Origin: Oxalobacteraceae bacterium CAVE-383
Lineage (GTDB): Bacteria > Pseudomonadota > Gammaproteobacteria > Burkholderiales > Burkholderiaceae_D
Assembly: GCA_004134995.1 (NCBI GenBank)
Contig: REGP01000006.1
Span: 186,001-250,000, forward strand
Reading direction: 5' to 3'
DNA: 64,000 bases
A program made the position numbers and the translations under genes. This document shows positions 11,412 through 61,628 of the stretch, piece by piece. The notes beneath the pieces were generated by a model. It did no database searches. It was not told the DNA's origin and saw nothing but the letters and a program-made list of their open reading frames with translations. Each line of letters starts with the position of its first letter. The first letter of the stretch is position 1.

Positions 11412-11541
11412 GTCAAGGCGCCGTCAGGCGCGGCGCAATGGGGTGTTGTGCGCAGTGAGGTAAAGGGGGAGGGGGCGCAGCCCCCGGAGGACACGAACGG
11501 AGTACAACGCCCCATTGCGCCGCGCCTGATGGCGACTTGAC
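11412..11541. repeat. 130-bp long-hairpin repeat, copy 1
   Basis: Imperfect palindrome with 38-base arms (11412-11449 and 11504-11541, three mismatches) around a 54-base core. The core carries AGTGAGGTAAAGG, an inner GC hairpin (GGGGG-CGCA-GCCCCC) and GGACACGAACG. The same core and half of the arm recur, inverted, at 61499-61628. It lies between cobC and the cobalamin promoter. It could end the cobC transcript but has no T-run. No transposase lies next to it. Confidence 0.85.
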
Positions 11542-11595: not shown

Positions 11596-11601
11596 GCGCG
11601 G

Positions 11602-11812
11602 GTAGCAAAACTTCAGGTGTTTCAACAACAGTCGTTGTTGAAATTAAACGGGAAGCCGGTGCGTCGCTGTGACGGCAAAGCCGGCGCTGCCCCCGCAACG
11701 GTCATCGAATAAGCTTGTTCGCGAAATGCCACTGTGCAAATGCACGGGAAGGCGCGGCAGGCAAAACGGCGCAGCCGTTTGATTCGTGAGCCCGGATACC
11801 GGCCTGTCGTGT
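11602..11812 (+). promoter_or_regulatory. Cobalamin (AdoCbl) riboswitch aptamer
   Basis: Conserved pieces occur in the right order: a P-arm hairpin TTTCAACAAC/GTTGTTGAAA (11620-11643), AAACGGGAAGCCGGTGCG, GCCGGCGCTGCCCCCGCAAC then GGT (11680-11702), the B12 box GCCACTG (11728-11734), GGGAAGGCG, and the closing GAGCCCGGATACCGGCC (11788-11804). CAGG at 11614 can pair with CCTG at 11803 as the outer stem. The ligand is inferred from the class. Control of the downstream cobalamin operon fits the usual feedback role. Confidence 0.93.
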
Positions 11813-11890
11813 ATTTGGTGAGTTTGCATCGCGGAGGGCGATCCAGGCGGATTGCCTTGCTGCGCACCCGTCTTTTCCCCTCTTGGCAGG

Positions 11891-60756: not shown

Positions 60757-61500
60757 ATGAAGTTGCGGAAGTTGCGGAAGTTGCGGTTCTTTCACGCTGT
60801 GCCGCTGTTGCTGCTGACGCTGGCGGCCTGTTCCTCCACGGCGCCGACCAGCCATGGCGAAGTGCAGGGCGCTTCCGCCAGCGGCCGCGAAATGGCGCAA
60901 TCCGATACCAATCGCGTCGCCACCATCGGCATGCAGGCCAATCTGGACAGCCTGTACACATTGATGGACAAGCTGTATCGCCGCAATCCCGCGGAATGCA
61001 GGAAGACCGGCGCCGACCGCGACGACTGCATCAAAAAGGTCAAGGAGGCGATTATCGGCCGCAAGGATTGGCCCGGCTTGCAGGGCCAGCGCGATATCAA
61101 GGCGCTGTCGACAGCTCTGAAGCCCGAATTCGAGGGCGACCGCGTCGCCGCCTTTATTTACGCCGTGGCCGACATGATCATTGCCGCGCACGGCGGCAAA
61201 ACCGAATTTTTCCTGGTCGACAGCCTGGATGCCCAATATTTGTACAACGCCGCGCGCAATGTCGAAATTGCGTCCTGGCTGCTGTCGAGCCGGCGCAATG
61301 CGGCAGGGCGCAGCCTGCTGTTGTCGGATGAAATCGGCGAGGCCGGCCGCAATCTGAGCTTCGAGCGCGAGTTCGGCAAGATCGTCGGCCGGCTCGATCT
61401 GCTGGCGGCCTTCGTTACCGAGAAATACCGCCGCGCGGGCATCGGTTATGTGCAAGGCTTGCTGGGCGGGCCGTTCCTGCAATTTCTGCCGGTGCATTAG
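60757..61500 (+). CDS. Putative lipoprotein of unknown function
   Basis: A 247-residue predicted lipoprotein: basic start MKLRKLRKLRFF, hydrophobic core and lipobox LLLLTLAAC. The rest is soluble and helical, with two cysteines (AECRKTGADRDDCIKK) and a distinct region GGKTEFFLVDSLDAQYLYN. I recognise no characterised domain. AGGAG lies 10 bases before the ATG. It is a plus-strand gene inserted between recJ and prfB, which are on the minus strand. The second 130-bp hairpin repeat begins at its stop codon. Confidence 0.8.
   Translation: MKLRKLRKLRFFHAVPLLLLTLAACSSTAPTSHGEVQGASASGREMAQSDTNRVATIGMQANLDSLYTLMDKLYRRNPAECRKTGADRDDCIKKVKEAIIGRKDWPGLQGQRDIKALSTALKPEFEGDRVAAFIYAVADMIIAAHGGKTEFFLVDSLDAQYLYNAARNVEIASWLLSSRRNAAGRSLLLSDEIGEAGRNLSFEREFGKIVGRLDLLAAFVTEKYRRAGIGYVQGLLGGPFLQFLPVH
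60760..60786 (+). repeat. Three tandem 9-bp repeats in a signal peptide
   Basis: AAGTTGCGG occurs three times in a row, encoding Lys-Leu-Arg three times right after the start Met of the lipoprotein. Slippage would change the length and charge of the signal peptide n-region without breaking the frame. Confidence 0.9.
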
Positions 61501-61628
61501 AGGCTGTAGCAAAATCAGGCGAGGCTGGGCGTTGTACTGCGTTCGTGTCCCCCGCCGGCCTGCGGCCGTCTCCTCCTTTACCTCACTTCGCACAACACCC
61601 AGCCTCGCCTGATTTTGCTACAGCCTCT
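61499..61628. repeat. 130-bp long-hairpin repeat, copy 2
   Basis: Same length as copy 1, in the opposite orientation. Arms of 37 bases (61499-61535 and 61592-61628) pair with a single mismatch. The core, read on the minus strand, has AGTGAGGTAAAGG, an inner stem CGGCC-GCA-GGCCG and GGACACGAACG. It fills the gap between two convergent genes (lipoprotein and recJ) and may terminate both, though it lacks a T-run. Confidence 0.87.

Follow-up and report, generated by a model that had tools for sequence, protein, structure and literature searches.

A dispersed bacterial palindrome family with a conserved core and divergent, self-complementary arms

The stretch of DNA analysed here, 64,000 nucleotides in full and referred to as the window, carries two near-perfect palindromes of 130 bp that are built around a common core. 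Copy 1 is located at 11412-11541 on the plus strand and copy 2 at 61499-61628 on the minus strand. Copy 1 is situated between a histidine-phosphatase gene, itself preceded by a CobS gene, and a cobalamin riboswitch (11598-11821), which is found shortly downstream of the element and ahead of a CobN gene. Copy 2 occupies the whole gap between an open reading frame (ORF) that matches nothing in Pfam and a gene encoding RecJ domains; the two genes are convergent, with ORF ends at 61500 and 61633. Both elements had been described in an initial annotation, and sequence and folding confirm their positions, their palindromic nature and their common core. The same annotation stressed that both copies measure exactly 130 bp; this equality is a coincidence, because arm lengths vary between copies.

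In copy 1, which is of type B and gives a covariance-model match at 11431-11523 (95.3 bits), the outer helix is formed by a 5' arm (11412-11451) and a 3' arm (11502-11541). Enclosed by the arms on the same plus strand are the 5' side of a conserved internal loop (11452-11470, GCAGTGAGGTAAAGGGGGA), an inner hairpin with a C(GCA)G loop (11471-11485), and the 3' side of the internal loop (11486-11501, GGAGGACACGAACGGA). Copy 2, of type A, is matched by the model at 61516-61610 on the minus strand (101.5 bits). Its 5' arm spans 61590-61628, the internal loop and inner hairpin together span 61538-61589 with the core match at 61540-61586, and its 3' arm spans 61499-61537, all on the minus strand. 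We also note that GTGAGGTAAAGG, on the 5' side of the core (window 11455-11466), occurs within many 16S rRNA genes as well; the resemblance is probably a coincidence.

Folding of 140-base stretches as RNA gives z = -12.5 for the core strand of copy 1 and z = -12.6 for that of copy 2, and none of 200 shuffles folds equally well. The predicted fold of the core strand is more stable than that of its complement, at -99.7 versus -84.5 kcal/mol for copy 1 and -92.2 versus -83.2 kcal/mol for copy 2. The complement-strand folds and the DNA folds of both elements also lie far under the shuffles (z -9.4 to -13.1). Over the elements, Rfam returns no match at gathering score, only sub-threshold matches that are mostly to microRNA hairpins. 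No terminator-like site or T-run is reported at copy 1 (11412-11541), copy 2 having been inspected by eye only.

A core search of the whole 4.12-Mb host genome bears out the expectation that further copies exist: the pattern GTGAGGTAAAGG-N10..40-GACACGAACG occurs 82 times, and the reversed-pattern control occurs 0 times. Across the window and 80 sampled stretches, 32 copies are detected by the covariance model and 27 by the exact pattern, which places the genome total near 97. The check by covariance model proposed in the initial annotation reveals a strongly covarying fold. In an alignment of 45 copies with a 31-pair structure, 96.7% of the cells are paired, against 62.2% after shuffling; 29 of the 31 pairs change on both sides, and the covariation score is 0.885 compared with 0.218 for the shuffled alignment. 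Pairing falls to 36-43% when the partner is slid by 1 to 3 columns. Chance origin of the pattern is rejected by the empty reversed control and by this covariation. A second small family, with core GACGAACGTTTGAAGCCGAGAGG and arms that are unrelated but self-complementary, is present in three copies in the fetched part of the host genome (L379, minus strand, near 1580; L394, 3425; L405, 8209).

The conserved part of the element is a purine-rich internal loop, with GTAAAGGRGGAG on the 5' side and CGGRGGACA on the 3' side, flanked by a short segment of tandem G-A pairs. This five-base segment beside the loop reads mostly N-N-G.A-A.G-N (129 of the 160 copies that could be parsed out of 166, six being unparsable), and both flanking pairs covary; five Watson-Crick pairs replace it in 17 of the 160. 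GGNGG is present on both sides of the loop in 241 of 248 units, seven of the 241 double matches using a neighbouring GG. The middle bases of the two boxes are A/G in 173 units, G/A in 55, A/A in three and G/G never, in a tally whose units from outside the host genome and G017 came mostly from a pattern with GGAGGAG and CGGGGG already fixed. C(GNA)G closes the inner hairpin in 78 of 82 host copies, in all 13 copies of the related genome G017, and in 57 of 109 others. GNA triloops and tandem sheared G-A pairs are stable in DNA hairpins; their occurrence here is therefore a hint, not a proof, of single-stranded DNA.

The outer arms had been described as unrelated between copies and yet self-complementary within each copy. 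Self-complementarity stands in spite of divergence, as pairs 10-36 are entirely Watson-Crick in 38 of 81 copies. The unrelatedness stands in part: a 27-nt arm segment shows a mean identity of 49% between copies (58 copies ungapped there), but 48 of the 81 copies share terminal consensus A (30) or consensus B (18), the remaining 33 matching neither at the thresholds used. Simple duplication with identical arms is ruled out by this divergence with pairing kept. The proposal that arm pairing is maintained or regenerated agrees with the finding that the arms change together. Among 48 copies with recognisable arm ends, 14 depart from the standard arm length, in every case by the same amount in both arms. 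These changes span -5 to +14 nt, seven being of one base and seven of 2 to 14. Equal multi-base changes in both arms are hard to obtain from independent mutations and thus fit arm-to-arm copying. Indels in one arm are observed in 13 of 81 copies, of which 12 are of a single base and one is a nine-base insertion (L073, by eye). The type A end, GAGGCTGTTGCAAAAT, has what we take to be a resemblance to an IS6-type terminal repeat. Short palindromes that carry this end and lack the core are found in the host genome at L353 (16904), L364 (C4:536536) and L082 (C6:296086), the last of them between tRNA-Glu genes.

Arm mismatches read on the core strand are predominantly G-U rather than A-C. With the tails trimmed, the G-U:A-C ratio is 51:8 in the host genome, 17:1 in G017 and 104:17 elsewhere; the untrimmed ratios are 64:21, 18:4 and 124:32, respectively. 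At the loci of named genomes, the relatives give 121:5 for inverted pairs and 51:8 for single copies. The p-values of such comparisons are nominal, since mismatches and copies share ancestry. Copies that are antisense to both neighbours give 6:0 in the host genome and 16:0 at the named-genome loci, and host copies between divergent genes give only 4:2. For the inner hairpin, a crude outside-in pairing gives 4:3 in the host genome, 5:9 in G017 and 26:3 in others. On balance, the fold of the core strand counts regardless of the direction of the neighbouring genes, and this points to selection acting on the element itself, or to single-stranded DNA, more than to neighbour mRNA. A strong mutational strand bias could also be the source of the G-U excess.

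All 82 host copies lie outside predicted genes, the gene calls being those of home-made scorers. They comprise 42 copies between convergent genes, 17 in tandem sense, 12 in tandem antisense and 10 in divergent settings, and one at a contig end. The placement bias at gene 3' ends for which the initial annotation proposed a test is strong, with 42 of 81 copies in convergent gaps against a baseline of 16% for gaps of 40 bases or more. In 24 of the 38 type A copies located downstream of a sense gene, 35-47 bases separate the stop codon from the core, so that the arm begins close to the stop. Judged by GC skew, 55 of 82 copies have their core strand on the C-rich strand (p = 0.003); this bias runs opposite to the expectation for simple insertion into the lagging-strand template.

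Placement in other genomes is likewise largely extragenic, with 93 of 101 copies at the named-genome loci outside predicted ORFs and eight overlapping one. Several species carry copies at the same site. The element lies beside boxB at 11 loci, ten of which have boxA directly downstream, and at five loci in different genomes it separates a gene for a sugar-binding protein from a permease gene; gene identity was confirmed at one locus per set (BoxB and BoxA at L141; solute-binding protein and permease at L209). Compensatory arm changes have occurred in place at both sets, with G-U:A-C ratios of 17:2 at the boxB-boxA loci and 9:1 at the sugar-transporter loci. Such same-site copies across species argue for a host function and for long residence, and elements between operon genes in several species may set relative expression. 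REP elements lie between malE and malF, and the sugar-transporter placement recalls these. Another conserved GC-rich repeat is located between boxB and the element at L141, L120, L150 and other boxB-boxA loci.

At the named-genome loci the element occurs largely in inverted pairs. Among 148 distinct model matches (154 entered, with five matches cut by a contig end and the two weakest left out, and four added from a second model search), 96 are in divergent pairs, none in convergent pairs, and 52 are single within 400 bp. The spacer measures 49-55 bases in 27 of 46 pairs, which were hand-picked and include same-site copies of related genomes, and the partners are often of different hairpin types. 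No inverted pair is seen among the exact-core copies of the host genome. In the Paucibacter/Rubrivivax/PBB2 group, 12 pairs align as one unit of ~310 bp with unrelated flanks, apart from two units (L138 and L156) whose flanks agree and which seem to represent a single site. By eye, the left end of the unit reads CGGCAC in 10 of 11 readable cases and the right end GTGCCG in 10 of 12; one unit (L142) holds an assembly gap and another (L203) is cut on the left. A composite with a gene enclosed between two distant inverted copies was considered at L119 and set aside, none of the ORFs read there by eye being recognisable.

Loci that lack the element are found within the genus. In G016, which is ~71% identical in the neighbouring gene, the phosphatase gene of the 11412 locus leads to the riboswitch with no element between them, and in G021 both neighbour genes of the 61499 locus are present without the element; both were judged by eye, and the pattern would fit gain as well as loss. 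Most other members of the genus have different neighbours at these places. Together with the ~310-bp units that have unrelated flanks in one clade, these element-free loci support the suggestion of a mobile palindrome made in the initial annotation.

The amplification is patchy in the genus. Copy 2 finds matches in four of 61 genomes, with at least 25 in the host genome, a count that includes arm-only matches, at least 14 in G017, three in G047 and one in G008; many copies are thus seen only in the host genome and G017. An order-wide sample contains the element in 18 of 399 genomes, which belong to 10 of the 158 genera sampled, and a class-wide sample in four of 369 genomes, two of these in one family outside the order; all copy numbers in the genus, order-wide and class-wide samples are minimum values. 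A scan of named genomes yielded 103 stretches carrying the element, mainly under the titles Hydrogenophaga, Rubrivivax, Rhodoferax, Variovorax, Methylibium, Rhizobacter, Paucibacter, Albitalea and Herbaspirillum, along with unplaced Burkholderiales or Betaproteobacteria and a few MAGs with broad or doubtful labels. One copy with its surroundings (151 bp) is identical in L034/L207, L116, L131 and L167, which are a Herbaspirillum, two Hydrogenophaga and a Rubrivivax MAG; going by the sequence, this identity across genera suggests horizontal transfer or shared contamination. Viral carriage was considered and rejected, one core pattern having no match in a viral collection; a scan of the viral collection with the neighbouring phosphatase also found nothing.

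Keyword and core-string searches of literature listings, as far as the listings go, met no description of the family, and the papers containing the core strings look unrelated to it, judged from their listing. The main text of two REP surveys has no mention of the Burkholderiales genera looked for. A survey of stem-loop families in bacterial genomes covers Bordetella, according to the part of it consulted (PMC2267715).

The family is a real and widespread structured repeat. What the observations best describe, with about even confidence, is a putative non-autonomous, BIME/REPIN-like mobile element partly in host service, whose functional part is the fold of one strand, with a long outer helix, a purine-rich internal loop and an inner hairpin that is mostly C(GNA)G. 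The folded strand, most likely single-stranded DNA, would be recognised through the loop by a putative trans-acting protein, which would also spread the repeat. The arms would need only to pair, and their sequence would therefore drift, while template switching that copies one arm from the other, combined with selection for foldability, would keep them complementary. Some old copies may since have been retained within operons by the host. The least certain point of this reading is the nature of the active folded strand, DNA or RNA.

In a somewhat unlikely but serious alternative, the family is a structured RNA element of transcript ends (an mRNA stabiliser, a terminator or a protein-binding 3' UTR element), and selection on the RNA preserves it at every site. 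The initial annotation had raised a transcript-end or structured-RNA role, and the part that stands is the 3'-end placement, with 42 of 81 copies in convergent gaps against 16%. The general excess of G-U over A-C mismatches is in its favour too, as are the boxB-boxA and sugar-binding/permease positions shared by several species, with their compensatory changes and ratios of 17:2 and 9:1. This role is weakened by the copies that run against both neighbours, in which the G-U signal is equally strong (6:0 and 16:0) and to which five antisense sugar-operon copies add 4:0. Nor do host tandem gene pairs show a clear orientation preference (17 sense, 12 antisense), and copy 1 has no terminator-like T-run and the elements no Rfam match. 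The inverted-pair design, the strand-specific hairpins and the extragenic placement would also suit true REP/REPIN elements that owe their mobility to a Y1 tyrosine transposase (RAYT), and the host genome does contain a Y1_Tnp match (25.5 bits, cut-off 23). The gene is, however, ~8 kb from the nearest exact-core copy, and the link to a REP-associated Y1 transposase raised at the outset is not supported: all 34 of 34 genus genomes have Y1_Tnp irrespective of the element, and although it is found in 11 of the 13 genomes tested, no match was found in the other two, G222 and G207, each with at least 10 element copies. GTAG, which defines REPs in the part of the literature consulted (PMC8266576), occurs within 12 nt 5' of the arm in five of 81 copies and is not conserved. 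With GTAG so rare and Y1_Tnp present irrespective of the element, the family is not filed under RAYT REPs, and we regard a RAYT origin as very improbable.

Among the genes neighbouring the elements, the largest protein clusters are mostly operon orthologues, and no recurrent transposase is apparent by eye in eight clusters. Scarcely credible is a further possibility, that the core is a small element inserting into the loops of existing palindromes, so that the arms are old palindromes. A few core-less palindromes do share the type A end, as this would predict, but in the fetched part of the host genome 83 repeats carry the core, whereas among 64 inverted repeats without the exact core only five have arms longer than 25, one of these being a degenerate family copy; the ratio is not a random sample, because many stretches were fetched around copies. 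Core insertion was rejected on the small number of core-less palindromes found.

Returning to the mobile element recognised through one folded strand, the family points to a putative recognition system for which a large folded internal loop would be the signal. A more far-reaching version, rather doubtful as a whole, is that of a new class of interspersed repeat: a strand-specific folded receptor in which two GGRGGA boxes flank a C(GNA)G hairpin and possibly form a two-layer quadruplex between helices, recognised by a protein, spreading as inverted pairs of two hairpin types, and with arms evolving in concert by arm-to-arm copying.

Among known systems, ERIC and other large imperfect palindromes are near 130 bp in size, intergenic and imperfectly palindromic with a conserved centre; the likeness of the present repeat to ERIC is one of size, intergenic location and conserved centre. 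The ~310-bp unit with its CGGCAC/GTGCCG ends and unrelated flanks, seen in 12 pairs of one clade, might be compared with a MITE; a target duplication was not established for it. Closer parallels exist with BIME and REPIN elements which, in the parts of the reports consulted (PMC3116915, PMC8266576), are likewise high-copy and extragenic, form spaced inverted hairpin pairs with singlets beside doublets, and display compensatory changes and strand-specific hairpin features. The present unit differs from these in its length of ~95-130 bp rather than 20-50, in the absence of a conserved GTAG and of a consistent Y1 transposase, in its conserved purine-rich internal loop, and in the occurrence of singles only in the host genome.

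The loop itself may be compared with the GGA-repeat RNA r(GGAGGAGGAGGA), which forms quadruplexes according to the consulted part of its description (PMC7080826). Both have four GG tracts with one-base linkers and an A after the second and the fourth (GGRGGA twice); in the present repeat, however, a hairpin separates the two GGRGGA boxes, and the likeness is one of sequence alone. For the arms, the nearest counterpart is template switching, which homogenises inverted repeats or maintains RNA hairpins (PMC8604942, PMC8794818), the two arms being made or kept alike by copying one from the other. In the parts of these studies consulted, the process concerns RNA hairpins and the coding sequence of a yeast lineage, whereas the present case is a dispersed bacterial family with a fixed core. 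It thereby offers, within one genome, ~100 parallel cases, equal indels in both arms included, of a palindrome that keeps its arms complementary while their sequence drifts.
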